Assembly (NCBI GenBank): GCA_017651265.1
Contig: JAGCDO010000008.1
Location: 48,983 to 112,982, forward strand
Direction of reading: 5' to 3'
Length of the DNA stretch: 64,000 nt
DNA from: Prevotella sp.
GTDB taxonomy: Bacteria; Bacteroidota; Bacteroidia; Bacteroidales; Bacteroidaceae
The notes under the pieces were generated by a model, which was given only the letters and a program-made list of their open reading frames with translations, was not told the DNA's origin and did not search any database. Position 1 is the stretch's first letter, and every line of letters begins with the position of its first letter. Made by a program: the position numbers and the translations under genes. Below, piece by piece: positions 22,426 to 63,675 of this stretch.

Positions 22426-23133
22426 TTATGCCATTAAGCGTTCAAGTTTGTTTTTCCACTTCTCCCAATGGGGCATTTCCTTGGTAAGAAGTGCATAGAA
22501 CTCCTTATTATGGCTGCGATGGATGAGGTGGCATAATTCATGAGTGATAACATACTCAATGCAACACCTTGGAGCACATATCAGTCGAAGGTTTAGTGTG
22601 ATGTGCCCATCTATTGTACAATATCCCCATCGTTTTTCCATTTTCTTAATGGAAAGACTTTGGGGCTTTACGCCATAAATAGAAAATTGTTCAATAATTG
22701 GTTGAGCATACTCATGAAACTTGATGTTGGCTCGTTGGCGATACCAAGTCTGTAACAGCATACCTGCATCCTTTTTTTGACGACATTCTATCTCAATGAT
22801 ATTATTCTGATAATGGACAGCATTCACATTGCTCTCCCTTACCCTGAGCATATACTGGCGCCCTAAGTAGAGATGCGATTCTCCACTAATATACTGGCGT
22901 TTCGTTGTAGGTGTGCCGAATGACTCAAAGAACCGCTTTTGTTTGAGAATCCAACTAGCTCTTTTGCGCACTTTCTTTTGAATCTGTTCTAAGGTTGCAT
23001 TTATAGGTGCCTTCAGACAGACGGTACTATCCGGATTGACACAAATGCTCAGTGTCTTTCTTGGGGCAAATACTATATCATAATTGATAATAGTAGCTCC
23101 ATATTGTATGTGGTCTCTTGTTATTTGATCCAT
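22426..23133 (-). CDS. YgjP-like zinc metalloprotease (M48/SprT-like)
   Basis: 235 aa. The zinc motif HELCHLIHRSHNKEFYALL near residue 192 is the HExxH of the YgjP/DUF45 family, with KKMEKRWGYCTIDGHITLNL just before it, as is usual. Genes of this family very often accompany type I restriction operons. It overlaps the start of its upstream neighbour hsdR by 13 nt, so it is translationally coupled and the last gene of the 11-kb operon. Its role in the restriction system is unknown. Confidence 0.88.
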   Translation of the reverse strand: MDQITRDHIQYGATIINYDIVFAPRKTLSICVNPDSTVCLKAPINATLEQIQKKVRKRASWILKQKRFFESFGTPTTKRQYISGESHLYLGRQYMLRVRESNVNAVHYQNNIIEIECRQKKDAGMLLQTWYRQRANIKFHEYAQPIIEQFSIYGVKPQSLSIKKMEKRWGYCTIDGHITLNLRLICAPRCCIEYVITHELCHLIHRSHNKEFYALLTKEMPHWEKWKNKLERLMA

Positions 23134-26100
23134 ATCTTAGCCACATCTACACAACCATCGATAATAACATCCATATCATCGAATGAAAAATCAACTCCGT
23201 ATTTTCGCTTGACATTATCAATCAATTCGTCTTCCAGTTCAATTTTCATTTTTCCGATGATATCACTTTTGGATTGCCAATCTACTAAAATAGCATTGTC
23301 AACAATAACCGCTTTACGAATGATTTCGTCAAAAGCCTTAGTTGTAGCAAGAGCCATTTCTTTAATTGGCTGATCTGGGAAGAGTCGTTTGTAATTCTCT
23401 AAGGCAATTCCATAATATGCTTTACCAGCATTGTTGTGCTCCAATTCTGCAGGCAGTTCGCTGTCAGTATGATTCAGTACGTCTTCCTTAAACTGCAACA
23501 TTCTTTCCAGATATTCATTGTCGCTCAGGCGGCCTTGTTCGTATGCTTCAATAGCCTCACGAATCAGTTGAGAGAATTTCTTGTAGAAGGCAGGGTCAGA
23601 ATCCATATTCTCTTTAATATATTTAGAGGTACGCGTAGCAATAGTATCTGCCTTTGCTGCAGTTCCAACAATACTGTCAACCTCTTTCTGGAAGTCTTCT
23701 GTATCAAAGATGTTTACCAGTTTCGTAATCACTCTTACCTCGTCGCTTTCCACGTGACGGTTGATGAGTTTCTCAATTCTTGCCTCATATTTCGTATAAT
23801 CAACAGCATCAGAATAACGTAACTGAACAGAAGTACGTAGTTTGGCAAACATACGCAAGTCTTCTTTGTATCGTTCAATCGTCTTTTCTTCAGTATTCTC
23901 ATGGAACTCTTTAGTGGAAAGAGCCAATTGGAGTACAGAGGAGAAAGCGGTCAAACGGTCATAGAACTCATGGCGTCTGTCTTCTAGTCTTAAAGACTGG
24001 GCGTATGCTTCCAAGTCACGTTTGTTTGGGATAGTCTTAAACAAATCCCATAAGTCGGCATTCTTTTGAGGAAGTTCTGCAATCTTGTCACTAACAGGGG
24101 CAAGGGTTTCACGGAATACTTCTTTGTCTTCCTCATCATATTCAGAATAAATGCTTAGCGCGTCATCCAATTCTGCTAACACTCCGTAGTAGTCGATGAT
24201 ATAGCCATAGTCCTTATCGTCACAATTACGATTGACACGGGCAACTGCTTGTAATAGTGTATGCCCTGTCAGATGACGGTCAATATACATGACAGTTACC
24301 TTGGGCTCATCAAATCCTGTTAGCAATTTATCCACAACGATCATAATCTCTGGATCTTCCTGTCCCTTGAATCTGGCAATCAGATTCTCCTGATATTTGT
24401 GTGGAGCTCCATGCTCATCCATCATCTTTTTCCAGAAGGCTTTTACCTCCTCAGGTGTCCCTCCGTAGGCCGTTTCTTCACCCTCGCGATCGTCTGGTGC
24501 TGTAATCAACACTTCTGATGTTACCTTGCCTATTTCATCTAGATATTTCTTATAGAGTATGGCTACTTTTTTCTTCGGAGTTACTAGCATGGCCTTAAAT
24601 CCAGTACTCTTCCAGTTGTCTGCGTAATGCTCTGAAATGTCTGTTGCTATTGAAAAGATTCGCTGTTCTGTCTGATTCAAGATATCTGTTCGAGAGAATT
24701 TCTTTTTTAAATCCACAGATTGTTCTTCCGTCAAGTCCTCACATACACGATCGAAGAAACTGTCGATAGGCCCCTCTGTAACTGACTGCGGCACAATGCG
24801 CCCTTCATAAAGTAATGGCACTACTGCATGGTCTTCTACCGCTTGTTTGACTGTATATACAGGTTTGATAATGCCGCCAAAGGTACGAGCCGTATTCTTG
24901 TCCTTCTTCATCAAAGGTGTACCAGTAAAGGCTATCTTACATGCATTGGGCAGCACACGATTCATCTGTATGGCCATTTCCTTATACTGGCTGCGATGAG
25001 CCTCGTCTATCAGAATAAAGATATTCGGATCAGTCAACGGTTGCTTGATTTTCTTGATGGCCGTTGCAAACTTGTTGATAATGGTTGTAATGACGGAATC
25101 TGTATTACTTTCCAATAACTCTACCAGTTTGATACCAGTTGTTGCATTCTCCACATCCTTACCACATTTGCGGAAAGTTTTCGTGATTTGGGCATCCAGG
25201 TCTGTACGGTCTGTCACTAAGACAATCCTTGGATTCTGTACAACAGTAGCAATTTTTTGTGCCAGCATCACCATTGTCAGTGATTTGCCGCTTCCCTGTG
25301 TGTGCCATACTACACCACCATTGCGTTTACCTGCCTCAATTCGTTTCACTCGCTCAACAATTTCTTTCACCGTGAAGTATTGCTGGTAGCGAGCCAATTT
25401 CTTGACGCCTGCATCATAAAGTGTGAAATGGAAGATAAGTTCCAGCAATCGCTTAGGGCGACAGAGATTGTAGATATATTCGTCCTGTGGGGTCGGTGTA
25501 CGCACTTCCTCGCTGTCTTTATTGACAATATCCAAGAGTTTTTTTTGATACTCCAACTCCTCTTCCTTATTGATATGCATCTCGCGCCATTTGCACCAGA
25601 ACTTCTGAGCAGAACCAGTGGTGGCATAACTTCCGAAATTATTGCCGATAGCCAACAATAGTGCACTGTATACATATAGCCCCCTGATGCCATCATCCTG
25701 CTGATTGCGCAGATGCTGTGAAATAGCCTGCTCCTCTGCTCCCTTGATATCTGGTCGTTTACACTCTATCACCACCAGAGGAATACCGTTCACGAACAGC
25801 ACGATGTCAGGACGGTAGGTGTCAGCAATGCCGGTACGGGTAACTGCAAACTCCTCTGTTACGTGATAAACATTGTTTTCAGGGTGTTCCCAGTCAATAT
25901 AGCGCATCGTATAGGTTTTCTTGTCCCCATCAATACTCTGCTCAAAAGCCTTTCCAAGCGTTAGCATGTTATATACTGCCTCATTGCCACTTAGATAACC
26001 GCCTTCCATTGGCACATTCCGCATGGCTATCACGCCGTTCTCAATGTTCTGTTCTGAGAATCGTTCCTCCTTGCGACTGCCCACCCGTATGGAGTTCAAT

Positions 26101-26267
26101 TCTCGCAACTGCCGTCTCAGCACCTCTTCCAACAACACATTGGAAGTCTTTCCGCCTCGCATCATCAACGCTTCCTCTGGCGAAAGATACTGATAGCCCA
26201 ACTTCTGCAACAACTCCAAAGCCGGCTTTTGGCTTATATCGTTTTCCTTGAATGATATTCTATCCAT
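23121..26267 (-). CDS. hsdR: Type I restriction enzyme R subunit
   Basis: 1048 aa. The N-terminal nuclease PD-(D/E)XK is seen as YRPDIVLFVNGIPLVVIECK near residues 153-172. Helicase motif I is WHTQGSGKSLTMVML near 320 and motif II is ILIDEAHRSQY near 421, followed by TGTPLMKKD and LTGFDEPKV and the HTLLQAVARVNR motif VI region. It cuts and translocates DNA with HsdM/HsdS. Length is normal, and no frameshift is seen. Here it is separated from hsdS by the Pycsar-like genes and a short wHTH ORF, 7 nt after the latter. Confidence 0.95.
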   Translation of the reverse strand: MDRISFKENDISQKPALELLQKLGYQYLSPEEALMMRGGKTSNVLLEEVLRRQLRELNSIRVGSRKEERFSEQNIENGVIAMRNVPMEGGYLSGNEAVYNMLTLGKAFEQSIDGDKKTYTMRYIDWEHPENNVYHVTEEFAVTRTGIADTYRPDIVLFVNGIPLVVIECKRPDIKGAEEQAISQHLRNQQDDGIRGLYVYSALLLAIGNNFGSYATTGSAQKFWCKWREMHINKEEELEYQKKLLDIVNKDSEEVRTPTPQDEYIYNLCRPKRLLELIFHFTLYDAGVKKLARYQQYFTVKEIVERVKRIEAGKRNGGVVWHTQGSGKSLTMVMLAQKIATVVQNPRIVLVTDRTDLDAQITKTFRKCGKDVENATTGIKLVELLESNTDSVITTIINKFATAIKKIKQPLTDPNIFILIDEAHRSQYKEMAIQMNRVLPNACKIAFTGTPLMKKDKNTARTFGGIIKPVYTVKQAVEDHAVVPLLYEGRIVPQSVTEGPIDSFFDRVCEDLTEEQSVDLKKKFSRTDILNQTEQRIFSIATDISEHYADNWKSTGFKAMLVTPKKKVAILYKKYLDEIGKVTSEVLITAPDDREGEETAYGGTPEEVKAFWKKMMDEHGAPHKYQENLIARFKGQEDPEIMIVVDKLLTGFDEPKVTVMYIDRHLTGHTLLQAVARVNRNCDDKDYGYIIDYYGVLAELDDALSIYSEYDEEDKEVFRETLAPVSDKIAELPQKNADLWDLFKTIPNKRDLEAYAQSLRLEDRRHEFYDRLTAFSSVLQLALSTKEFHENTEEKTIERYKEDLRMFAKLRTSVQLRYSDAVDYTKYEARIEKLINRHVESDEVRVITKLVNIFDTEDFQKEVDSIVGTAAKADTIATRTSKYIKENMDSDPAFYKKFSQLIREAIEAYEQGRLSDNEYLERMLQFKEDVLNHTDSELPAELEHNNAGKAYYGIALENYKRLFPDQPIKEMALATTKAFDEIIRKAVIVDNAILVDWQSKSDIIGKMKIELEDELIDNVKRKYGVDFSFDDMDVIIDGCVDVAKIWIK

Positions 26268-28706: not shown

Positions 28707-29903
28707 CTATAATATCCTCCTTTTACCTGTTAATAATACCTGCATCAGCCCCTTTTTCTGCGCCTGCATGGCCGCCAGTTTTTGTTTTTGTATCTCGATT
28801 TCTTTGTCAGCATTAACCAATACCGACGCAATAGCGTTTTGTTCTTCGATTGATGGAATTGTAATTCTCATATTCAAAACTTCTATTTTTGAAATATTAA
28901 ACCTTGTAGACCCTTGAGCACTTTTGTACATTTCTTTTCTGAAGTCATCGCCACGGAAAAGATATGATGCATATACAGGAACTATAGATTTAAAATCATT
29001 CAATCTATACCCAAAGCAAAAGCTATTCAAATACGTATTTTGAACTTCATTTAGTAACACAGAAGTCATACCTACTTCATCAGGGGTTTCTGAAGAAACA
29101 GTAAAGAAAACATCTCCATATTGTACTTGCTCTTGCTTTTCAGATGGCAGAATTCGAACTTGACCTAGGTTGTCAATGTCAATTTTCCCATTTGAAAACA
29201 CATTCATATATGTGATAAACAGAGCGTTTCCGTTTTCAAAATCTTCTTTGTTTTTATTTACCAAACCTCCATATGCGGTACCTGCATCCCCCAACCTCAC
29301 TTCCTTCCACTCTCCACCAAACACTTTCAGACGTTTCTTCCCCGTGAGCAGTTGCTGCATCAATGCGCGTTTGCGCAATTTGAGTTTTTCAATCAATTCT
29401 GATTGCTTCTCTATGGCTGAATCCCATAATTCTAAAACTTTAACAATACAACCTTGCTCTTCTATTGGTGGAATAGCAATCTTTGAAACATGAACATCAT
29501 TCCTGTTTAATGTCGGTACACCAGAGCCTGAGGAAAATTTAGATAACCCTATATACTTATATACATAATAAACATACTTAGGGTTATTACCTTTAAAATC
29601 AGTTACCCATAAAGATGTATTATGAGGCCAATAGTCTGATTCCACATAAGTCACTTTGCCAATAGTTCCAGAGCGTCCTGTGACTACTCCTGGTCCTTTT
29701 GCTTTATACTCAATATGAAAGTTAAGTATCCCATTTGAGTATACTACAGGATATGCGCCTTTTACTATCTTTTCAGTAGGAAGGTCGAATCCTCTTTGCA
29801 ATGGGGCAAAGTCAAGAATTCTCTTCACTTCCCATTCCTTTGGAATGATGCCGAGTGGAGAGTCCTTATAGCCTTGTGGTACATGTTTACTTTTATCCGT
29901 CAT
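28707..29903 (-). CDS. hsdS: Type I restriction enzyme specificity subunit
   Basis: About 398 aa. Two target-recognition domains, each followed by a conserved helix: IEEQGCIVKVLELWDSAIEK ... LMQQLLTGKKRL, and IEEQNAIASVLVNADKEIEI ... LMQVLLTGKRR. This defines a full-length, bipartite HsdS. I chose ATG 29903 (MTDKSKHVPQG) because it makes a classical ATGA overlap with the upstream 77-aa gene. It sets the recognition site for HsdM and HsdR. Confidence 0.92.
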   Translation of the reverse strand: MTDKSKHVPQGYKDSPLGIIPKEWEVKRILDFAPLQRGFDLPTEKIVKGAYPVVYSNGILNFHIEYKAKGPGVVTGRSGTIGKVTYVESDYWPHNTSLWVTDFKGNNPKYVYYVYKYIGLSKFSSGSGVPTLNRNDVHVSKIAIPPIEEQGCIVKVLELWDSAIEKQSELIEKLKLRKRALMQQLLTGKKRLKVFGGEWKEVRLGDAGTAYGGLVNKNKEDFENGNALFITYMNVFSNGKIDIDNLGQVRILPSEKQEQVQYGDVFFTVSSETPDEVGMTSVLLNEVQNTYLNSFCFGYRLNDFKSIVPVYASYLFRGDDFRKEMYKSAQGSTRFNISKIEVLNMRITIPSIEEQNAIASVLVNADKEIEIQKQKLAAMQAQKKGLMQVLLTGKRRIL

Positions 29904-30133
29904 CTGTTGTAATATTGTTGTAGGAACGCCTGTATAGCCTGCTGTTGTCTCTGTTGTGCTTCTATCCATTCAGTCAAGAAACGCTGAAAATGATCAGCAG
30001 CCTCATGTTGGTCTATAGCATTACACATCTGTTCCGCTGTTTGCGGAGGGAAGTTGTTCCTAATAATAGACTTACCTATCTCATTAGAGATTTTATTGCC
30101 TACTATATTATATAAATCTTGTATTGTAATCAT
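29900..30133 (-). CDS. Small hypothetical protein (77 aa) between fic and hsdS
   Basis: 77 aa, helical and glutamine-rich at its end (EAQQRQQQAIQAFLQQYYNR). It overlaps both neighbours by 4 nt (ATGA with fic at 30130-30133 and with hsdS at 29900-29903), which strongly argues that it is translated. I do not recognise a family. By position it could be a partner or antitoxin of the Fic protein or an accessory subunit of the restriction complex; that is inference. Confidence 0.75.
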   Translation of the reverse strand: MITIQDLYNIVGNKISNEIGKSIIRNNFPPQTAEQMCNAIDQHEAADHFQRFLTEWIEAQQRQQQAIQAFLQQYYNR

Positions 30134-31569: not shown

Positions 31570-33099
31570 CTAATATCCTAATTGCTTTAAATACTCTTTC
31601 ATTTTGGCCTGCACCTCTGCCAATTCTGTCTCTAACTGCTCTATTTCTTTCTGAACAGCAGGGATGTCGATTTCTGCCTCTTCCTCGTAGGTATCAACAT
31701 AACGAGGGATGTTGAGATTGAAATCATTCTCGTGAATATCATCAGGAGTAGCGACAAAGGCATACTTGTCTTCGGCTACACCTGGAGCGAATTCGCCATC
31801 GACAAACTTTTGATAGGTCGTTACGATATGTTCAATGTCTTTTTCACGAAGTTTGTTCTGATTCTTGCCGTTCTCGTACTCTCGACTGGCATCAACAAAC
31901 AATACGTTTTCTGAGTTGCGACCTTTACGAAAAATAGCAATAGCTGCAGGAATGCCTGTACCATAGAAAAGGTTGGCAGGTAAGCCAATGACAGCCTCCA
32001 ACGTATGTTCATTCTCAAGGATATACTGACGAATCTTTCCTTCACTGCCTCCACGAAAGAGAACACCATGAGGAATAATGACACCAACCTTGCCACCATT
32101 ATCGTCAGCCACTTCCAGCATGTGACTGATAAAGGCCCAGTCACCCTTGCTCTTTGGTGGAATGCCACGCCAGAAACGGTTGTATGGGTCGCTGGCTGCT
32201 TCCTCTGCTCCCCACTTGTCGAGAGAGAATGGGGGATTGGCAACTACTGTATCGAACTTCATCAGTTTGTCGTTGACCTTCAACTTGGGATTGCGTAGCG
32301 TATCGCCCCATCTGATGACAGCATTGTCAAAGCCATGCAGGAACATATTCATCATCGCCAAAGCCCACGTACTACCATTGACTTCCTGGCCATAGAGCGA
32401 GAAGTTGTTGTTTCCCACTTCCTTTCCTGCCTTAATCAGTAAAGAGCCAGAACCACAAGTGACATCACAGATGCGAGCACCAGGCTTACTCTTAGTGAGT
32501 TTGGCGAGTAGGGTGGAGACTTCTGCTGGTGTAAAGAAGTCACCAGCTTTCTTACCTGCCTCTCCAGCAAAGGTAGAAACAAGATACATGTAGGCATCAC
32601 CAATGATGTCGTTGTTCTCTAAATGCGACTCATCCAAATCCAAATCGCGGAAATCTTGTAACAAATTCTTTAGACGGGCATTCTTTTCTTTGGGCTCACC
32701 CAAGTTGGCACTATTAAAGCTTATATTGCGGAAAATACTGCTACCGTCTTCGCTGCTCATCTTCTCGCGGTTGACATCTTCAAGATCGGCTAAAGCCTCG
32801 TCTATCAGTTCGCCAATATTCGTGGCATTCCTGTTGTCGTAAAGGAAGTCAAACGAACTTCTTTGGGGTACAACAAATCGTTCATGACGCATGGCTCGCT
32901 CAGAACGTTCCTTATCACTATTATATTTAATAAGGTATTCGTTCAGTTTAGACTTATAGACGTCACTCACATATTTCAGGAAAAGCATGGTGAGGATGTA
33001 ATCCTTGTATTGACTCGGATCAATCACACCACGGAAAGTGTCGCAGGCTTTCCAGACAGTGCGGTTAATGTCTTCTTGGGTTATCTTCTTAATATCCAT
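31570..33099 (-). CDS. hsdM: Type I restriction enzyme methyltransferase subunit
   Basis: 509 aa. SAM motif I is ICDVTCGSGSLLIKAG near residue 210 and catalytic motif IV is VVANPPFSLDKWG near 287, both complete; GDFFTPAEVSTLLAKL precedes motif I as in HsdM. N-terminal helical HsdM_N domain (WKACDTFRGVIDPSQYKDYI). It methylates adenines at the HsdS-defined site. It lies between the half-length S gene (5-nt gap) and fic. Confidence 0.95.
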   Translation of the reverse strand: MDIKKITQEDINRTVWKACDTFRGVIDPSQYKDYILTMLFLKYVSDVYKSKLNEYLIKYNSDKERSERAMRHERFVVPQRSSFDFLYDNRNATNIGELIDEALADLEDVNREKMSSEDGSSIFRNISFNSANLGEPKEKNARLKNLLQDFRDLDLDESHLENNDIIGDAYMYLVSTFAGEAGKKAGDFFTPAEVSTLLAKLTKSKPGARICDVTCGSGSLLIKAGKEVGNNNFSLYGQEVNGSTWALAMMNMFLHGFDNAVIRWGDTLRNPKLKVNDKLMKFDTVVANPPFSLDKWGAEEAASDPYNRFWRGIPPKSKGDWAFISHMLEVADDNGGKVGVIIPHGVLFRGGSEGKIRQYILENEHTLEAVIGLPANLFYGTGIPAAIAIFRKGRNSENVLFVDASREYENGKNQNKLREKDIEHIVTTYQKFVDGEFAPGVAEDKYAFVATPDDIHENDFNLNIPRYVDTYEEEAEIDIPAVQKEIEQLETELAEVQAKMKEYLKQLGY

Positions 33100-47975: not shown

Positions 47976-49895
47976 ATGTTAGTTACAAAACGAATCCTCA
48001 TCACGCTGATCACCCTCGTGATTACGAGTACAGGAGCATGGGCTCTTAGTCAAGATACAGATGGGTATTATCTCATTGGCTCGTTACAGGACTGGAAGGA
48101 CTTTGCTAATCTTGTCAACACCCAATATCCTGGAAAGAAAGATGCCCGTATGACCGCTGATATTGATTTGGGAACAGATCAAACAATGTTGGGAAGGGGC
48201 ACTGACCCAAACACATATTATTATCTAGGAGAATTTGACGGACAAGGGCATACGCTAACCATCGCCTATCAAGGTGAACTAGGTTATCAATTCTATGCAG
48301 CGCCTTTCCGACATGCAAGTTTGTGTGAAATTAGAAACCTAAATGTGAAAGGAACGATATCTGTTTATAACAAGATCAACCAAATTTATGTTGGCGGAAT
48401 AGTAGGGTATTCAACCTCGACTTGCAAAATAAAGAATTGTCACGTAGATGTGGATTTTATATCGCCAGCTGCTGCACAATTTAATATCAATTATAGCAGT
48501 TTGGTAGGTTGTGCAAGTTCCAATGCAATCATATCTGACTGTATGGTGGAGGGGAATGTAAAAGGCAAAGATGGTATTTCGACTTATTATAGCCCTTTCA
48601 TCGGTCTTATCACTTTCATCAATTCATCAACTCCATCTTCTATTACGACCAGTCTTTCCACTGCAACGACAGAGAATGTGTCGTTGGTTACTGGAGCGTT
48701 TCGATCAGTAGATGGCCCCCAGACAGGTATGACTAATGTTTATAGTCGGTATGTGGGTGCTTCAAAAGAGCAGCAGTGTACTGCTTGGTCGGAAGAACAA
48801 CTCACCAACGGCTATATCGCTTATAAGTTACAAAACGGGCGCAGCAATCTTGTATGGGGGCAGAAAATCGGTACTGATGCTACTCCTATCTTTACAACGA
48901 TAGAAAGTAAACGCGTTTATCGTACCACCAATGGTTTTACCAATATTTCTACCCAAGCAAGTTCAGGTATTAAGAGGGATACTGAAGGTTATTATCTAAT
49001 TGATGATTGTCTCGATTGGGAGGATTTTGCCACCATTGCCGAGAATACTCCGACGGCCAAGGCCCGTATGATCGCTGATGTTGATTTGGGCTATACCCAG
49101 ATAAAGGTGGGTGTCACGAACCCATTCCAAGGCACTTTTGATGGCCAGGGACACATTTTGACCGTTCACTATCTGCCATCAACAACCTATAGCTCTCCAT
49201 TCCCCCAAACCGCTGGCGGGGCAGTTATTAAGAACCTGCGCTTTGCAGGCACTTTGGAGAATGTTTCCAGTAACCGTCCTGCACTCGTCAGCATACATAA
49301 CAATGGCATCTTGAATATTGAAAAGGTATGGAGCTCTGTTGATATTACTTCCACCATAACAGAATGGGATGAGTCAGCCGCATTCGTAGCCTGTTGCAAT
49401 GGTACCATTAACATCAACGACTGCATGTTTACAGGAAGTATCACAAGTAGCGGTGAAGAAGCTGGTTGCTTTGTAGGTGGTGTTCATAGTAATAATGTCT
49501 ACATTAACAACTGTCTTTCCACGGCGACGTTTAATCTTACAGGTAATAATCCTGGTCTGCGTGGAATATACAACAACACTTATATTCTGCGATTCCCTCC
49601 TGCTGCCATTTCTCCCGAAATGCAGTGTACAACCAGCGAATTGTATAACGGTTCTATTATCACCAAACTGCAGGCAGGTCGTTCGGAAAGAATCTGGGTG
49701 CAGGATGCTGAAACAGGATTACCGTCGCTGAAGATTTTCGCCAATTCTCCATCTATTACGACGGGGATTGATAGAGGAAAACTGTTCGTTGGGGATATAA
49801 CTGGGTGGTACACTATCAATGGACAAAAGCTAAGTGGTAAACCCACAAAGAAGGGTGTGTATATTATAAATGGCAAGAAAACCATTGTTGATTAA
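47976..49895 (+). CDS. Secreted GLUG-like repeat protein with C-terminal sorting-type tail
   Basis: 639 aa. Signal peptide (ILITLITLVITSTGAWA). Two similar halves each begin with a DTDGYYLIGSLQDWKDFANL / DTEGYYLIDDCLDWEDFATI unit followed by beta-helix-type repeats with GLUG-like motifs (VGGIVGYSTSTCKIKNCHV). Ends in WYTINGQKLSGKPTKKGVYI, the tail shared with the proteins at 18136 and 53133. Likely surface-exposed or secreted, possibly adhesive; substrate unknown. Confidence 0.75.
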   Translation: MLVTKRILITLITLVITSTGAWALSQDTDGYYLIGSLQDWKDFANLVNTQYPGKKDARMTADIDLGTDQTMLGRGTDPNTYYYLGEFDGQGHTLTIAYQGELGYQFYAAPFRHASLCEIRNLNVKGTISVYNKINQIYVGGIVGYSTSTCKIKNCHVDVDFISPAAAQFNINYSSLVGCASSNAIISDCMVEGNVKGKDGISTYYSPFIGLITFINSSTPSSITTSLSTATTENVSLVTGAFRSVDGPQTGMTNVYSRYVGASKEQQCTAWSEEQLTNGYIAYKLQNGRSNLVWGQKIGTDATPIFTTIESKRVYRTTNGFTNISTQASSGIKRDTEGYYLIDDCLDWEDFATIAENTPTAKARMIADVDLGYTQIKVGVTNPFQGTFDGQGHILTVHYLPSTTYSSPFPQTAGGAVIKNLRFAGTLENVSSNRPALVSIHNNGILNIEKVWSSVDITSTITEWDESAAFVACCNGTININDCMFTGSITSSGEEAGCFVGGVHSNNVYINNCLSTATFNLTGNNPGLRGIYNNTYILRFPPAAISPEMQCTTSELYNGSIITKLQAGRSERIWVQDAETGLPSLKIFANSPSITTGIDRGKLFVGDITGWYTINGQKLSGKPTKKGVYIINGKKTIVD

Positions 49896-56066: not shown

Positions 56067-56429
56067 TCAATAACCCAACATGGCAGCAGGTGTTATACCC
56101 AATGTCATACAGAGCAGACGGGCTATCTTTAGCGTCGGCTCCGCACGACCTGATACATAGTCACTGATACGTGACTGACTAACACCAATCTCCTGTGCCA
56201 ACTGCTTCTGGCTCATGTTCTTCTCTACTAATGACAACTGAATTAACTGGGCAACAGTTGGCTTTGAAATTGGGAAGTGCTCCTTCTCATAATCAATCAC
56301 CACATCCGACATCATCGTCAACTCTATGGCATTGCGATCGTTGGCAGGCGTGTTGTCGTCAACCAACGGAAGCAGTTCCTCTATTCTTGCCAATGCGAAC
56401 TCATACTGTTCTTTCGTAATCTTTGCCAT
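56067..56429 (-). CDS. higA: HigA-type antitoxin (XRE helix-turn-helix)
   Basis: 120 aa. C-terminal HTH: NMSQKQLAQEIGVSQSRISD (about 72-91) followed by YVSGRAEPTLKIARLLC, ending ITPAAMLGY. The N-terminal half is helical. It follows the HigB-like toxin gene by 15 nt, the usual toxin-first order of higBA, and is expected to neutralise the toxin and repress the shared promoter. Confidence 0.85.
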   Translation of the reverse strand: MAKITKEQYEFALARIEELLPLVDDNTPANDRNAIELTMMSDVVIDYEKEHFPISKPTVAQLIQLSLVEKNMSQKQLAQEIGVSQSRISDYVSGRAEPTLKIARLLCMTLGITPAAMLGY

Positions 56430-56444
56430 AACATTTCCTCCTTA

Positions 56445-56744
56445 TTAAATTGTTGAAGCATCTATCTTATCGTATTCACTATGCGTACCTACAAAGCGGA
56501 TGAAGATATGTCCTATCGTGAACTTAACGACAACCACGAGACGATATTTATTGCCTCGGATATTAAAGACATAATGCTGGTTTCCAACATAATCAGTGGC
56601 GGGGAAATCCACCTTGATATCCGACAGATTCTTCCATCCTGCCTTTTCGGCTATATCATACCAGCGTTCTAAAGCAGCTTGGGAGTCCCCATGTCCTTCA
56701 GCGCTATAGAATTCCACCAGTTTTCTATGTGATACTATTCTCAT
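56445..56744 (-). CDS. higB: HigB-type mRNA interferase toxin (RelE superfamily)
   Basis: 99 aa from ATG 56744 (MRIVSHRKLVEFYSAEGHGD). The segments ALERWYDIAEKAGWKNLSDI and NIRGNKYRLVVVVKF, then IFIRFVGTHSEYDKID, match HigB ribosome-dependent mRNA interferases. First gene of the pair with HigA. The promoter and a palindromic operator lie just upstream (56764-56796). Confidence 0.87.
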   Translation of the reverse strand: MRIVSHRKLVEFYSAEGHGDSQAALERWYDIAEKAGWKNLSDIKVDFPATDYVGNQHYVFNIRGNKYRLVVVVKFTIGHIFIRFVGTHSEYDKIDASTI

Positions 56745-56796: not shown

Positions 56797-57143
56797 AATC
56801 ACCATATATTTTTTGAATTATAATATTTTGACATTGACAACTACGCTTAGATGGCCGCACAGACCTTCACGAGCCAGTAAAGGGAACCCCACCCCAGCCC
56901 TAATGGCACCGGCATCGTTTTTGCCTCGTGATAACACATGTCCTTATCTTTTCCCACAAATCACTTGGAAGTTATTGAAATAATCGCTATATTTGCGGTA
57001 TCGTTTAAAAATAACCTATGAGGACGGATTAGGACAACCTATTGTAGATTGCAGACCTCCTTGAAGTGGACATTAAAGAGTTCTTGTCAAAGAATACAAG
57101 CGGTATCATTTTTCTCAAGAATATAAGTAAAAGTGAATATATT
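56797..57143 (+). promoter_or_regulatory. Upstream region of the TerB/GHKL/helicase operon
   Basis: No gene seen. A TATATTTG -7 box at 56988-56995 would give a leader of about 140 nt before ATG 57144; no good -33 TTTG. Nothing else recognised. Confidence 0.4.
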
Positions 57144-57482
57144 ATGGAGTATACAAAAGAACAGAAAATGGCAATGTCCAAGGTGTTATTGGACATAGTG
57201 AGCGTTGATGAGCATATTGATGCCCGAGAAACTATGTATTTCGAGAGTATTAAGCAAGAGCTTCAATTGACAACCCAAGATCATTTCGACATCTTGCATC
57301 TCAACACTCTTAAATGCTTAAGCATCATAAAAGCGATGACAATTGAGCAAAAAACTGGATTTGCCACAATGATGCGCAAAATGATCATAGCGGATGAGTA
57401 TATTGACCCTAATGAGGCAGCATCTTTCTACGATATATGCGAATTTATCCATATTAATGGAATAGGTTTAACAATTAAATAG
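57144..57482 (+). CDS. TerB-like small protein
   Basis: About 112 aa from ATG 57144 (MEYTKEQKMAMSK). It is helical with paired acidic motifs: SVDEHIDARETMYFESI near the start and IADEYIDPNEAASFYDICEF near the end, the TerB-type repeated D-x-x-D/E metal-binding pattern. TerB domains occur in stress and phage-defence operons. The next gene starts 8 nt after its stop, so it is coupled to the GHKL ATPase. The ORF further upstream lacks a convincing start. Confidence 0.75.
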   Translation: MEYTKEQKMAMSKVLLDIVSVDEHIDARETMYFESIKQELQLTTQDHFDILHLNTLKCLSIIKAMTIEQKTGFATMMRKMIIADEYIDPNEAASFYDICEFIHINGIGLTIK

Positions 57483-57490
57483 AGTATATT

Positions 57491-60400
57491 ATGAGCGCCA
57501 GCCAAGATTTTATCAAGAAGTTGCAAAAAGAGCGCACGGATTACAACCATGCCTCACAAGTTCGAATGCAAGCTAAATCACTTCTTCAATTATCCGTTGG
57601 AATATATACAGAACCAGAAAGATTCGTATATGAACTACTTCAGAATGCAGTTGACGCCTTTTCTGATACAGAAAGTAATACCTTAAATATCCTTATTAAG
57701 GCAGAAGAGGACCGATTCATTTTCATGCATAATGGAAAAGCCTTTGACTCAAAGGATGTTGAAGGAATAAGTGATGTTGGAAATGGTACCAAATCTAAAG
57801 ACAGTAAAAAAATAGGTTATAAAGGTATTGGTTTTAAGTCTGTGTTCATGCCATCTGTTGATCATGTTGGAATAATCAGTGGGCAATACTGCTTTGAGTT
57901 TGATAAACACAAGGCTTGTTCACTTATGCCAAAATTCCCTCCAAGTGAGGGAGTTCTCGAACCCAATGATGTTCCGTGGCAGGTTATTCCTATCGACGCA
58001 CCACATCTTCAAGAGTTGAGCCTACCTGGCTTTAATGTTATCACGATTGTATATACTAAAGAAGCTAATCTTATTGCCACACAAATTGAAAGATTGTTTT
58101 CAGACCTGCAATTTTTACTATTTTTGAGAAGTAATAATGTCATCATTAGCTTTGAACGGAACGGACAGCATATTTTAAATGTAGGAAAAGAACAGACCTG
58201 CGCCAACAGTAGCACATTGTCCAAAGTGATATTACATAAAAATGGGCAACCACAGAGCACTTGGATGCTTTATACAAAAGATGTCCCTGTTCCTGCTGAG
58301 GTCAAAACAGCTCTTGAGAATGATTTCAATACCCCTGATAAGCTAAAGGGTGCGGAAAGGGTTGAAATATCATTTGCTGTTCAAATAAATAATGATGAAG
58401 TTGTTCCGTTAAAGAATACTTCTGTTTTCACGTTTTTGCCCACATCTTACCGTGGATTACGAGAACCATTCTTGATCAACTCCAATTTCATTACAGACGC
58501 AGGTCGCCAGCAACTTCACCAAGAGAGTGAATGGAACAAGCTCATCTTTAGAAAGATTCCTGAATTGTATTTGGATTTCGTCTCAAAGTTCTCGCAAATA
58601 TATTCCAACTATACGGAAGTCTTACCTACAATCTATCCTGACAATGATACATTAGTTGGGGTATACCGAAATGCTTTACAAAATGCCTTCGACTCAATTG
58701 CTTTCGTTCCAAATCGTAATGGTAATTGTCTTCTGAAAATCGGAGAAACTTTGGTAGATAGAACGGGCATTTCTAGGGGTGTTATTCCCATTGAGCGAAT
58801 GTTGAAACATCTCAACAGAAAAATGGGGGGGCATTTTACGATAGATAGTTTTGTAGAAAATGAGGGGATTGTGGCGTATGCTCACAACATAATCAACCTG
58901 TTTGACAGAGAAGATTTGGTACAACTTCTTGCTGATAATGCTATTACTTCAAATATTTCTATTCAAGATGACATAAAGCTGATTCGATTCTTATACCAAT
59001 TCTTCCAGCAATCATCTCTTGATTCATATAAAGGATCCCTTAAAGATACATCTGTTCTATATGATACAAATGGACATCTCAGACGTTTTGATGAACTATT
59101 TTTTCCGTCTAACTTCCAAGAGCAAAATGAAGAAATGTCGGATGTAGCTTTATTGGATGAAGAAATATACAATAACATCAAAAATGAAACCTCAATAGTT
59201 ACATGGTTGGCATCTCTAGGAATACGAGATTTATCAAACACGTCTTTTGTCGATTATCTTTTTGCGCACCATGATTATATTACAGTTGAAAATGCTCTTT
59301 CTATAGGAAGATTCTTGTTTAGTGTGTGGAAACAAGAAAACTTCTTAGAGAAAGCATCATACAAAGAAGAAGTAAAGAACCTTTATTTCCTTGCCAAAGA
59401 TGGCCAGTTACGACCTATAAGCAATCTGTACCTTGGCAGTATGTATAGGCCTGATGACGACATGGAACCCATCAATCAACAGCCCGATTTGTATGTATCA
59501 GATGATTATCCCGAATATGGAGATTTTGAGGATTGGTCTTTCTTCTTAAAGAAATGCGGAGCAATAGACAAAATAGGTATGGTCACTAAGGATTATACCA
59601 CAGAAGAATTGGGGTTTAGCTTCATTAAAAAAACAGCAGAGTCATTTAGGGATTGCCCACATCAGTATTCTAACTATTGGGGATATAAGAACCCCATTAT
59701 CAATATTCATTTTAAGGTTTCCTACTTCACGTTTATTGACTTTCACAATGCGAATTATGATTTAGATAAGTTCATCTTTTCCAAAGTCTTATCAATGAAC
59801 CGTAGTGAATGGAGTACTAGTGATAAGGTTTATGGTAACATTAACTACTGGGGGAATAGGGTTGAACGGACTTTGAAAGAATTCGCTCCTTATGAATATA
59901 AAAGTCAATACAACTCTTTCCTTGAATATATAATAGCTAATGAACAAAAGTTCCCTACCACTCAAGGCACCTCTATTTCTCCTAGTGAAATATTCATTAA
60001 CAATCCTACTACGGAAGAATTGGGAGGCAAATATTTGCCTATATTAGCTATAGATGCTAAAGTTCATGAGAGTTGGCGATCTATTCTTCCTTTTAAAATG
60101 AACCTGACAATAAATGATTTGTTGGATGTCCTGGAAAGAATCTCAATGAATGATGATGATGAAGACAAGGATGCAAAAAAGGAACGCATATCCAAAATTT
60201 ATCGCGAAATAATTGATAGAGACGAACAGTGCTCTCCAAGTATTAGAGAATGGGCGAAAACTCACAGTATTCTTTCCCATTCCGGGGACTTTCTTCCAGC
60301 CTCGGAGTTGACCTATATCACTGTCGATGGCTTTAAAAATAGTGAAAACAAGGTATACTGCGAAAAGATAGGTAAAGATTATCGAGAAAAGTTGCTCCAA

Positions 60401-61465
60401 CTGCTTCGAACATTTGGTGTTCAAGTCATTACGCAAAAAGATATAACTACAGAATTCACTAATTCCGTCGAAAACGAAGAGCTTAAAACACAATTATTAA
60501 AGAAGTTGCAATACCTTGCCGTATTGCGTGATAATTCGAAATTAGAATTCGAAGAGAAGAAAGCAGAACTAGATAGTAAGATACAGAAAACTCATTTTTT
60601 CAAATGTGATTCTATATCTTTGACATATGGTGTAGACAAGGATACCATTTCAAAGTCCACGTTCTCAAAGGGAGACTGCTTTTATTATACAGGAAGGATT
60701 ACACCTGCGCTTATGGAGCCGCTGTTATCACCTCTATGTAGTCATCTTAACTTGGGAAGCAGTAATGACGGCAAATTGATGGTGATTCTTATAACTGACG
60801 ATCATCAATCTCTTGTTGATTATCTCGCAGACTGCGGCTACGACGTGAGCAAGTTAATCGAACCTTCAGTTGAATTGACCGTTAATAAAAGCGGTGCTAG
60901 TGGATCGCAAGAAATTACCTTGCCCACAGAAGAGGTGGACGTGCGCGAATTAGGAAATGTTGAAATAGAAAAGCAGAAAGAAGTCAATAAGGAGGCTCGT
61001 ATTCATGCCAAGCCATACCTTGCTGCACATGGTTATGATGTTTCTTCGTGGGAACCAGAAACATCCCTGCCAGATTTAGTCAGTGTCATCAAAGATCCTA
61101 ATGGCAACCCAATCAATGTAGTAATCCGTAGCGCAAAACAGCGTTATATCCATCTTTCAGCATCATCATTTGAGACTTTAATGTCTAATCCAAATAATCT
61201 ACTCATTGTAGAAAACAATCAAGGTATCCGACCGGTAACTTTTGAGGAATTGTTCGGAAACGACTCTAACGTCAACCTAATATTTGATGCACGCCATACG
61301 CCCAGAGAGTATTTCCAGGCACTAGCGATTATTTTCAAATACGTTAAGAATACTGAATTCGTTGTTAGAGATCCACACTTCTCAGCTTATGAGGAGATTA
61401 AAGGATTTGGTTTGGAGATGAAGAATGATGGAACAATATTAATTGCCACAAACGAAGATATTTAA
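57491..61465 (+). CDS. Giant sacsin-like GHKL ATPase (putative defence protein)
   Basis: 1324 aa. The N-terminal GHKL fold is clear: N-box RFVYELLQNAVDAFSD (44-59), G1 region IFMHNGKAFDSKDVEGISDV and G2 KKIGYKGIGFKSVFM (106-120), as in sacsin/HSP90-type ATPases. The large middle is unassigned. The C-terminal ~180 residues (EARIHAKPYLAAHGYDVSSW, NPINVVIRSAKQRYIHLS, NNLLIVENN) resemble a DUF3883-type (NOV_C) nuclease-fold domain, but the usual E-x-K is replaced by V-I-R, so it may be inactive. Its stop is 2 nt before the helicase start. AT-rich. Confidence 0.8.
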   Translation: MSASQDFIKKLQKERTDYNHASQVRMQAKSLLQLSVGIYTEPERFVYELLQNAVDAFSDTESNTLNILIKAEEDRFIFMHNGKAFDSKDVEGISDVGNGTKSKDSKKIGYKGIGFKSVFMPSVDHVGIISGQYCFEFDKHKACSLMPKFPPSEGVLEPNDVPWQVIPIDAPHLQELSLPGFNVITIVYTKEANLIATQIERLFSDLQFLLFLRSNNVIISFERNGQHILNVGKEQTCANSSTLSKVILHKNGQPQSTWMLYTKDVPVPAEVKTALENDFNTPDKLKGAERVEISFAVQINNDEVVPLKNTSVFTFLPTSYRGLREPFLINSNFITDAGRQQLHQESEWNKLIFRKIPELYLDFVSKFSQIYSNYTEVLPTIYPDNDTLVGVYRNALQNAFDSIAFVPNRNGNCLLKIGETLVDRTGISRGVIPIERMLKHLNRKMGGHFTIDSFVENEGIVAYAHNIINLFDREDLVQLLADNAITSNISIQDDIKLIRFLYQFFQQSSLDSYKGSLKDTSVLYDTNGHLRRFDELFFPSNFQEQNEEMSDVALLDEEIYNNIKNETSIVTWLASLGIRDLSNTSFVDYLFAHHDYITVENALSIGRFLFSVWKQENFLEKASYKEEVKNLYFLAKDGQLRPISNLYLGSMYRPDDDMEPINQQPDLYVSDDYPEYGDFEDWSFFLKKCGAIDKIGMVTKDYTTEELGFSFIKKTAESFRDCPHQYSNYWGYKNPIINIHFKVSYFTFIDFHNANYDLDKFIFSKVLSMNRSEWSTSDKVYGNINYWGNRVERTLKEFAPYEYKSQYNSFLEYIIANEQKFPTTQGTSISPSEIFINNPTTEELGGKYLPILAIDAKVHESWRSILPFKMNLTINDLLDVLERISMNDDDEDKDAKKERISKIYREIIDRDEQCSPSIREWAKTHSILSHSGDFLPASELTYITVDGFKNSENKVYCEKIGKDYREKLLQLLRTFGVQVITQKDITTEFTNSVENEELKTQLLKKLQYLAVLRDNSKLEFEEKKAELDSKIQKTHFFKCDSISLTYGVDKDTISKSTFSKGDCFYYTGRITPALMEPLLSPLCSHLNLGSSNDGKLMVILITDDHQSLVDYLADCGYDVSKLIEPSVELTVNKSGASGSQEITLPTEEVDVRELGNVEIEKQKEVNKEARIHAKPYLAAHGYDVSSWEPETSLPDLVSVIKDPNGNPINVVIRSAKQRYIHLSASSFETLMSNPNNLLIVENNQGIRPVTFEELFGNDSNVNLIFDARHTPREYFQALAIIFKYVKNTEFVVRDPHFSAYEEIKGFGLEMKNDGTILIATNEDI

Positions 61466-61467
61466 CT

Positions 61468-63675
61468 ATGCAGTATACAAGAGAACAGCAGGAAAAGTTC
61501 CTTGATGAGGAGTTATCCGCAATATCAGAGAAATATATTAAACTAATTAGTAAGAAGGCCATTGCTTTGATGGAGAGTGGTGAAGTGTTCGTCTCTCAAT
61601 ATTTAAAAACGGACGAACAGGGATGTGTCATCTTGAAGATGCGCAATTCTCGAGGCCTGCCAAGAAAGGGAGACTATTTCTGCGCCGCTTTGTTCATTGG
61701 AGAGATGTGTAAGTTCAGAAATTGGGGAGACTATTCTTGGGCTGACTTAAGGCGAAAGTTCCAAAAGGAATTTTCGGAAGTGTACTGTGCCTGGCTTGGG
61801 AAAACTGATGATCCTGATTTTTCCTTCGTAGGAATCAAAGGAGTCTCTCTGGATCTTTCGAACGAGCTAAGGCCAGAGTGTATCCTTGTTCTTGGACCCC
61901 AGGAACCGCCGATTAAGTATTACCAAAATCTTATTAGCATTGTGCGTGCCGAACCTGCAGATAGCGTAGTCGGCAAAATGATGGATTATGATTCTCAGCT
62001 AGTTAAATGGAATCCTGTTAATCTATCCGCAAAAAACAGTACAGGAGAGTTCTTTCGTGGGCAACTGTCATTGACTGATGAAATAGTTGTCCAAGGGCCT
62101 CCCGGTACAGGTAAAACATATAAAATGGCTAAAATGATAGCTGGTCTTCCAGAGAATGCCAGCGTTCTTGTTACAGCACTGACTAATCGAGCATTAATGG
62201 AGTTGGCTGGGAAGGATTCATTAGAAAAAATGCTCGAAGAAGGGCGAGTCTATAAAACCAGTCTAACAACGGATGAGCAAAGAGAAATACCCAAACTTCA
62301 ACAAATCGATGGGGCTGATATCCATTGTGTCCCTGGAAACCTTTCTTTGGCAACGTTCTATGCGGCTTCCAACTGGGCCAAAGTGATAATTGATCAGCCT
62401 CCTTTTGATTATGTCATTATGGATGAAGCCAGTCAAGGATTCTTTGTAATGGTTTGTGCAGCAAAAAAATTAGGCAAGAAGGTTATCTGGATTGGAGACC
62501 AATGCCAGATGCCACCAGTCATTAACATGAACCCAGACAAATTATTAGAGAAGAATTGGAGACCACTTTCGTCAGGATTCAAAACTCTTTGCGAGAACTT
62601 CTCATACCCGAGTTATTTGCTAGGCGATACTTACCGCCTTTCTGAAAGAGCATGTGCTTTTACAGGTATCTTCTATGATGGTGCACTGCGTTCGGTCGCT
62701 GACAAACATGATGATTTGCCTATTACGAATCTTTCTCCAGGCGGTGGGCCATCACTCTTGACACTTCCGCTTGAATCAGGAAATCGTGCCCCGGAAAAAA
62801 TGATTGATGAGGTTCTGAATATGGTTAAAGCTATTCTAGCGTACAATTCCAAGTTGGAGATAGCCATTCTTTCAAAGTTCAGAGCCACAGTTAAGAATAT
62901 GCAGCGGGCATTTATCAACCTTTATGGGGAGCAGAAAAATGTCTTAATTGATACTGTTGAGAGAGTACAAGGACTTACCTGCGATGTGTGTTTCTTCTGT
63001 ATACCAAACGATTTGCAGTATATGTCTCTGGAAAAGCCTTTATTCAATGTGGCTACAAGCCGCTCTGTTTTCAACACAGTCATCGTTTGTGATGAAAACA
63101 TGTTGGACACGGTTGATATGGATATTGATGTGCGCAATTATTTGGAGCGTGCGAAATCAAACTCTATTCCAAAAATTGAAAAGCCAGAAGAAGATGACCA
63201 AAAGCCGAGGCTTAAGGTGCTTGGAAAGATAGATCCCTCCTTGCTTGAGCGAAAAAAAAAGGAAATAAGCAAACTTAAACGAAACTATTATGTGATTGAT
63301 ACAAATGTATTCGTAAAATGTCCAGATATCATTGATCGAATAAAAAAAGACTATCCCGTTATCCTATCTGCAAAGGTTGCTGATGAACTTGATAAAATGA
63401 AAATAAAGCTTGATGAACAAGGTAAAAGAAACGCAGAAAAGGCGCTTCGTTACCTAAATTCTTCATTAAAACATAAAATCATATATGAGTTGGCTGACAC
63501 ATCACTATTGCCACATGATTTTGATAAGAAGTCTGCTGACAATATGATTCTTTCTGTCGCTCTTAAATACAAAAGTGAAAACCCGATAATCCTCACTTCT
63601 GATAATGGGCTTCAATTAAAAGCAAAGATTTTAAAAATCAGCACAGTTAATTTGAAAGATTTTCTTAAGAGATAG
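61468..63675 (+). CDS. UPF1/DNA2-like SF1 helicase fused to a PIN nuclease
   Basis: 735 aa. Walker A VVQGPPGTGKTYKM (207-220), Walker B DYVIMDEASQGFF (314-326), WIGDQCQMPPV (motif III), TYRLSERACAF, and DTVERVQGLTCDVCFF (motif V-VI region). From about residue 605 a PIN domain: VIDTNVF, KVADELDK, SADNMIL and TSDNGL supply the four acidic residues, all present. Such helicase-PIN pairs suggest RNA or nucleic-acid degradation. It is the third gene of the operon. The N-terminal ~200 residues are unassigned. Confidence 0.83.
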   Translation: MQYTREQQEKFLDEELSAISEKYIKLISKKAIALMESGEVFVSQYLKTDEQGCVILKMRNSRGLPRKGDYFCAALFIGEMCKFRNWGDYSWADLRRKFQKEFSEVYCAWLGKTDDPDFSFVGIKGVSLDLSNELRPECILVLGPQEPPIKYYQNLISIVRAEPADSVVGKMMDYDSQLVKWNPVNLSAKNSTGEFFRGQLSLTDEIVVQGPPGTGKTYKMAKMIAGLPENASVLVTALTNRALMELAGKDSLEKMLEEGRVYKTSLTTDEQREIPKLQQIDGADIHCVPGNLSLATFYAASNWAKVIIDQPPFDYVIMDEASQGFFVMVCAAKKLGKKVIWIGDQCQMPPVINMNPDKLLEKNWRPLSSGFKTLCENFSYPSYLLGDTYRLSERACAFTGIFYDGALRSVADKHDDLPITNLSPGGGPSLLTLPLESGNRAPEKMIDEVLNMVKAILAYNSKLEIAILSKFRATVKNMQRAFINLYGEQKNVLIDTVERVQGLTCDVCFFCIPNDLQYMSLEKPLFNVATSRSVFNTVIVCDENMLDTVDMDIDVRNYLERAKSNSIPKIEKPEEDDQKPRLKVLGKIDPSLLERKKKEISKLKRNYYVIDTNVFVKCPDIIDRIKKDYPVILSAKVADELDKMKIKLDEQGKRNAEKALRYLNSSLKHKIIYELADTSLLPHDFDKKSADNMILSVALKYKSENPIILTSDNGLQLKAKILKISTVNLKDFLKR

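Follow-up and report, generated by a model that had tools for sequence, protein, structure and literature searches.

The window analyzed here is a 64,000 nt stretch of DNA from Prevotella sp. (assembly GCA_017651265.1, contig JAGCDO010000008.1, forward strand, positions 48,983 to 112,982). Close to its end lie three plus-strand genes, encoding a TerB-like protein, a large GHKL ATPase and a superfamily 1 (SF1) helicase with a C-terminal PIN domain. A preliminary description of this DNA had proposed them as an undescribed defense system, and the tight arrangement it reported, with intergenic gaps of 8 and 2 nt, is confirmed by the open reading frame (ORF) listing of the window. The features are as follows (E, E-value).

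57144..57482, plus strand: TerB-like protein of 112 amino acids (aa) (PF05099, E 1.3e-5); accessory, outside the conserved core.
57491..61465, plus strand: Tiamat (TmtA)-type GHKL, sacsin-like ATPase of 1324 aa (PADLOC TmtA, PDLC03972), with N-box, HNG and GxxGxG motifs.
60935..61462, plus strand: C-terminal module of the GHKL protein, residues 1149-1324; nuclease-like predicted fold, no D/E-x-K motif, proposed docking module.
61468..63675, plus strand: SF1 helicase of the Upf1/Sen1 type, 735 aa, carrying a PIN_4 domain at its C-terminus; identified by AAA_11/AAA_12, PIN_4, sequence motifs and structural matches.
63289..63672, plus strand: PIN_4 domain, helicase residues 608-735 (Pfam match 608-729; PF13638, E 1.7e-21).

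The TerB-like ORF begins with ATG at 57144; starting instead from a GTG in frame at 57066 would lengthen the protein by 26 aa. The contig ends (base 112,982) together with the window, 325 nt beyond the helicase-PIN gene, so any further gene of the operon would be out of view.

The GHKL protein matches the TmtA profile with an E of 9.6e-268, residues 5-1195 aligning with profile positions 4-1149 of 1302, and also matches SACS (Pfam, E 3.2e-11) and a sacsin-type ATP-binding domain (NCBIfam, E 2.9e-21). Its GHKL motifs are intact: ELLQNAVD (N-box) from residue 48, HNGKAF from 80 and GYKGIGF from 109. The GHKL proteins of three related loci (L031, L034 and L057) score as TmtA as well, making four of the four tested with PADLOC. 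The preliminary description could match the three genes to no named system; given the TmtA score this holds for the gene set, since no PADLOC, Pfam or NCBIfam model names a GHKL-helicase pair, and fails for the GHKL gene. Tiamat is a single-gene system. It was reportedly described by Millman et al. in 2022. The window protein shares with it a homologous GHKL/sacsin-like ATPase over residues 5-1195 and differs in what follows. The nearest stand-alone TmtA, at L056, is of similar size, is matched up to the last of the 1302 profile positions and has at its C-terminus a NOV_C/DUF3883 nuclease (E 3.5e-19) with its D/E-x-K motif intact, whereas in the window protein no NOV_C is found, the profile match stops at 1149 of 1302 (at 1160 in L057), and the C-terminus is another module without the motif. 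A further difference from a one-gene system is the helicase gene lying directly downstream, both here and in 20 related loci. The available parts of two papers give the mechanism of Tiamat as unknown (PMC12926258; PMC10482375). Most likely the locus carries a helicase-coupled variant of Tiamat.

The helicase displays the motifs GPPGTGKT from residue 210, MDEAS from 318, VERVQG from 497 and NVATSR from 527. Its best structural matches are Sen1, SETX, IGHMBP2 and UPF1, with Dna2 and the Upf1-Nmd4 complex entries 8rd3 and 9qdq also among the matches. Nmd4 is a PIN-family protein, and eukaryotic UPF1 has the PIN partners SMG6 and Nmd4. The combination of a Upf1-type helicase with a PIN domain is common to both, but in the window it forms one bacterial polypeptide that is paired with a GHKL protein, and the likeness to UPF1 with its PIN partners and to Sen1/SETX is a distant analogy rather than orthology. 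The PIN motifs are IDTN at 610, DELD at 639, SADN at 689 and TSDN at 710, and all 10 aligned rows keep the four acidic residues of PIN_4 (D611, E640, D691 and D712) unchanged. A PIN tail occurs on 15 of the 21 paired helicases described below, and all four motif patterns are found in 13 of these (the window and 12 of the other 14); L079, where the tail is cut short, retains one of four patterns, and L125 lacks one. Six of the 21 have no PIN (L058, L080, L081, L082, L083 and L132/L133), and S1 domains occur in two loci. PIN domains about 60% identical to that of the window also sit on different proteins with no GHKL neighbor (L130:405-1490 and L131:8906-10063), and proteins of G803 and G947 that match the PIN part only, with no GHKL adjoining, were left out of the counts. 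Similarity to MkoA of the Mokosh system (E 4.7e-22) covers helicase residues 293-554 and MkoA 773-1082 of 1112. Mokosh membership was rejected: the best stretches of both MkoA and MkoC are limited to the helicase core, and the window differs in having a PIN tail and a GHKL partner. Mokosh includes a PLD domain, according to the accessible part of PMC10952713; no PLD match was found among the three gene products with Pfam or PADLOC, although the nearby contig end leaves room for a further gene.

The helicase was searched for in public genomes (10 loci) and in sets of genomes from the same order, class and phylum, the genome of the window being counted in the last three. It was found in 10 of 393 genomes of the order (11 places, E<=1e-60), 6 of 295 of the class and 2 of 395 of the phylum (both E<=1e-40). 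With duplicates removed this gives 21 places: the window, L031-L039, L057, L058, L076, L077, L079-L083, L125 and L132/L133. G775, in which the helicase is split solely by a contig break, is included. Excluded are L040, a fragment of a contig; G617/L084, where the helicase is a broken piece with no GHKL; L078, a duplicate of L031; and L099, from the viral collection, where the contig end cuts the helicase and the GHKL upstream is truncated. All 21 places with an unfragmented helicase have a related GHKL gene immediately upstream, or just the C-terminal end of one where the contig breaks off, so the pairing claimed from the window is real and conserved. At L125 just the last 224 aa of the GHKL are on the contig, and L076 has an incomplete GHKL ORF of 1197 aa that lacks the N-box; complete GHKL proteins range from 1324 to 2479 aa. 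Measured in 15 loci, the spacing of the two genes varies between -14 and +12 nt. G132 has a 2307-aa fusion protein (L065:2227-9150) that combines a GHKL of the TmtA type with an SF1 helicase, and in which the C-terminal module was not found with the module profile. By these comparisons the conserved unit is the GHKL-helicase pair in Bacteroidota. Single-sequence scans of the viral collection with the GHKL and the helicase gave no match, nor did a TerB alignment; a helicase alignment matched 25 viral-collection loci, the only close one being L099 (45% identity). There, at L099:2739-8367, a gene that we read as integrase-like lies beside a GHKL without its N-terminal ATPase part and the cut helicase. 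Plasmid records were matched by the helicase (36) and the GHKL (14), none at 80% coverage.

The C-terminal module of the GHKL protein is shared across these loci. When each row of the module profile was left out in turn, 11 of 12 were recovered (E<=5e-14), and the module was also found in all ten helicase-linked GHKL proteins outside the profile (E<=1.1e-13: L032, L033, L035, L037-L039, L076, L099, L125 and L132), or 21 of 22 in total. Ten of ten GHKL proteins that have no helicase partner lacked a match to it (best E 0.21), and their loci show no relative of the window helicase. The structure model shows a nuclease-like predicted fold, for which Foldseek returned no significant match and a profile comparison with NOV_C was weak. 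The D/E-x-K motif, a pattern defined after L056 had been inspected, is present in none of 20 helicase-linked GHKL C-termini. The module may descend from an active nuclease whose catalytic site is gone. Among 18 loci, pairs with more diverged helicase cores also tend to differ more in the module (rho 0.724), in the ATPase (0.559) and in the middle region (0.535). For a 10-locus subset, picked after the 18-locus set had been planned and dropping eight members of one clade, the correlation persists for the module alone: rho is 0.571 with the module (6 of 1000 permutations as high), -0.07 with the ATPase and -0.144 with the middle region; L076, L125 and L132 are left out of this co-divergence analysis.

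Several observations weigh against a degenerate nuclease module that has become tied to the helicase. The L057 row was missed when left out of the profile (E 0.38). The D/E-x-K motif is also missing from four distant GHKL proteins without a helicase, which leaves the contrast with L056 as the main ground for speaking of a lost nuclease. A module search of 359 Bacteroidales genomes found 14 places, and the ten strong ones (E<1e-30) all precede a helicase, but this proves little as a reverse test because nine of the ten are rows of the search profile. Finally, the adjacency of module and helicase in the DNA could give the same pattern of co-divergence.

The four weak places in that search fall into two kinds. 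One, in G561, was rejected as spurious, as no GHKL occurs in the stretch fetched. The other three are GHKL genes (L153:3-5394, L154:4282-9590 and L155:773-5770), each followed by a gene for an OLD-like AAA_15/AAA_21 ATPase; the module scores E 2.4e-10 to 2.7e-5 in the genome search and 3.3e-10, 2.9e-8 and 9.9e-6 in unfiltered hmmsearch, whereas hmmsearch with its filters on gave no match. Two of the three loci have an extra small gene, encoding an OLD-like TOPRIM or a DUF4276 protein, both below the Pfam cut-off. Since the module is also present in these OLD-partner GHKL proteins, the profile matches make it a mark of partner linkage, mostly but not only to helicases.

Defense genes occur near several of the pairs, as seen when chosen genes were scanned in chosen loci, without a random control. 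An AbiP2-type reverse transcriptase is the next gene, within 5 nt, at L037:8046-12066 and lies by the pair at L035:493-2166, and the start of another is recognized, by similarity only, at L039:11959-12227. Argonaute and PDC-S02 are directly upstream of the pair in L057, a type I specificity subunit is more than 5 kb away in L036, a type II methyltransferase occurs in L079 and a WYL protein in L032. Larger arrays combine the pair with DEAD-box helicase genes (L082:101-15281, L083:4198-18042, and L132:918-14910 with L133:205-7318); the DEAD-box helicases of L083 and L133 carry an MZB domain, one in L133 is DruE-like by PADLOC, L132 has a DrmD-like SNF2 protein, and type IIG restriction-modification (R-M) genes or parts are found in L132 and L082. 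The remaining features of interest in the window itself are these.

56445..56744, minus strand: HigB-type toxin gene, divergent, not assigned to the system (PF09907, E 2.2e-31; PADLOC PD-Lambda-2_A, E 1.4e-34).
56067..56429, minus strand: helix-turn-helix (HTH) antitoxin, HigA-like, not assigned to the system (HTH_3, E 1.2e-14).
23-33 kb: type I R-M set (HsdR 23121-26267; HsdS 28707-29969; HsdM 31570-33099).

The toxin-antitoxin pair, about 400 nt upstream of the TerB-like gene, bears out the higBA neighbor of the preliminary description. It was considered as PD-Lambda-2 and rejected: the A-type toxin matches, the second gene (120 aa) covers profile positions 9-118 of 402, and a third gene was not searched for. 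The AT-richness noted for the three genes is real (GC is 36-40% at 56-64 kb and 42-55% at 34-56 kb) but not special to them, as much of 8-34 kb is equally AT-rich. Within that region, 8991-33099 holds the type I R-M set together with genes for a KAP NTPase, a T5orf172/DUF4268 protein and a VapE-like protein.

The reading we prefer, held with slightly less than even confidence, is a two-gene anti-phage module in which the GHKL protein is the sensor, its C-terminal module docks the helicase(-PIN), and this effector destroys nucleic acid, probably RNA. The large GHKL protein would act as an ATP-driven sensor or clamp, and the module, with a nuclease-like fold and no recognizable catalytic motif, would hold the helicase. 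On sensing infection, an ATP-driven rearrangement may change the conformation of the GHKL protein and license the helicase to load, and the PIN-bearing helicase would then cut nucleic acid, most likely RNA, either the transcripts of the phage or, in abortive infection, RNA of the host. In the six of 21 systems without PIN, helicase activity would have to serve, alone or together with another nuclease. RNA is favored as the target because of the Sen1, SETX and UPF1 matches, including Upf1-Nmd4, and the S1 domains in two loci. The gene pairing, shared module, presence or absence of motifs, domain identities and co-divergence of helicase and module are all read from sequence; physical docking, sensing, an RNA substrate, an anti-phage role and the origin of the module in an active nuclease are what we infer.

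It is rather unlikely that the effector acts instead on DNA, in a Dna2-like or R-M-like manner, with the GHKL protein clamping DNA or drawing it into loops, as MORC/paraMORC proteins have been proposed to do. The GHKL operons of that group, as set out in the available part of Iyer et al. 2008 (PMC2292703), likewise bring together a GHKL ATPase, a helicase and a nuclease, the last either fused or separate, in predicted R-M systems. Dna2 is among the structural matches of the helicase, and three PIN-less loci lie beside DEAD-box helicase genes, with whole or partial type IIG R-M genes as well in two of the three. However, the MORC/paraMORC operons have superfamily II helicases and DNases, whereas here an SF1 Upf1-like helicase accompanies a sacsin/TmtA-type GHKL; Sen1, SETX, IGHMBP2 and UPF1 are its best matches, the nuclease is a PIN and not a restriction endonuclease or HNH domain, and the S1 domains also point away from DNA.

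A cellular role in RNA quality control or stress, with Upf1-SMG6-like decay licensed by an Hsp90/sacsin-like chaperone and no anti-phage function, seems a little less probable again. It would account for a UPF1-like helicase carrying PIN, a sacsin-like GHKL and the S1 domains in two loci, but the sparse distribution (10/393 genomes of the order, 6/295 of the class and 2/395 of the phylum, own genome included), the defense genes in several neighborhoods and the kinship to TmtA fit a horizontally acquired defense system better.

The preliminary description had treated TerB, GHKL and helicase as one unit, and here it does not stand. Among the pair loci, TerB similarity (tblastn, E<=0.1, all loci compared) was found only beside the pair of the window and as a remnant in L033 (E 8e-4), although a strongly diverged TerB could escape this search and the region upstream of the GHKL in L125 is off the contig. 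Homologues of the TerB protein occur in 8 of 149 related genomes, that of the window included, and in the five examined of the seven other contexts none had the GHKL-helicase pair; the TerB gene is thus scattered without co-conservation, whereas the pair holds together in 21 of 21 places. The contexts examined are unrelated, defense-like clusters of the same genus (L093:2672-3046, L094:8404-8742, L095:8355-8690, L096:8327-8728 and L097:8227-8625), which by our reading include TIR-like proteins (L097), a P-loop helicase-like gene (L093), and DUF488-like genes plus a helicase-like gene with TerB on the opposite strand (L094 and L095); in L096, TerB is near a helicase called PDC-M16A by PADLOC. 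From these comparisons the TerB gene looks like an exchangeable accessory, a mobile add-on.

A single Shango-like system of all three genes is therefore improbable, even with gaps of 8 and 2 nt and the same grouping of TerB, ATPase and helicase in Shango (PMC10250203, seen in part). The helicase of Shango is of the DEAD/DEAH-box type, while here no Sng model was matched by the three proteins in PADLOC, the helicase had no match up to E 1 to SngC, a model present in the library, and TerB homologues belong to other operons. The TerB protein has a Pfam TerB match and no PADLOC model, the presence of an SngA model in the library being unconfirmed. Membership of Shango was rejected on the missing SngC match and the lack of TerB conservation; Shango and Bunzi both carry TerB domains, according to the accessible part of PMC10952713. 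Least probable is plain Tiamat, with the GHKL protein defending alone and the helicase a hitch-hiking neighbor: the TmtA match (E 1e-267) and the stand-alone TmtA of similar size (L056) agree with it, but the pairing in 21 of 21 places, a C-terminus unlike that of L056 and the GHKL-helicase fusion in G132 do not.

Tiamat-type GHKL proteins and, in the consulted part of PMC2292703, GHKL-helicase-nuclease operons (MORC/paraMORC) were already known. Among the titles listed by literature searches, some of which showed just the top-ranked papers and which left most subscription papers outside their scope, none described the pairing with an SF1 helicase-PIN, the C-terminal module common to these GHKL proteins or the OLD-like partner. 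A broader reading than the two-gene anti-phage module, possible but doubtful, is that Tiamat-type GHKL proteins serve as a plug-in platform for immunity: some would end in their own DUF3883 nuclease, and in others this end would have turned into a docking module, devoid of a catalytic site, that recruits exchangeable effectors encoded next door. One such effector would be a Upf1-like helicase, PIN-tailed or not; the other would be an OLD-like AAA ATPase, either by itself or joined by a TOPRIM-like protein. The helicase-PIN branch would be a bacterial RNA-destroying complex built like UPF1 plus a PIN endonuclease. If the helicase-coupled reading is true, annotators should beware of labeling such loci plain Tiamat and of including TerB in the core. 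The stand-alone and partner-linked forms, one a related ATPase with a nuclease end of its own and the other with a docking module and an external effector, would then offer a handle on the mechanism of Tiamat, a change from enzyme to adaptor within an immune protein would be suggested, and a bacterial Upf1-PIN effector would become testable.

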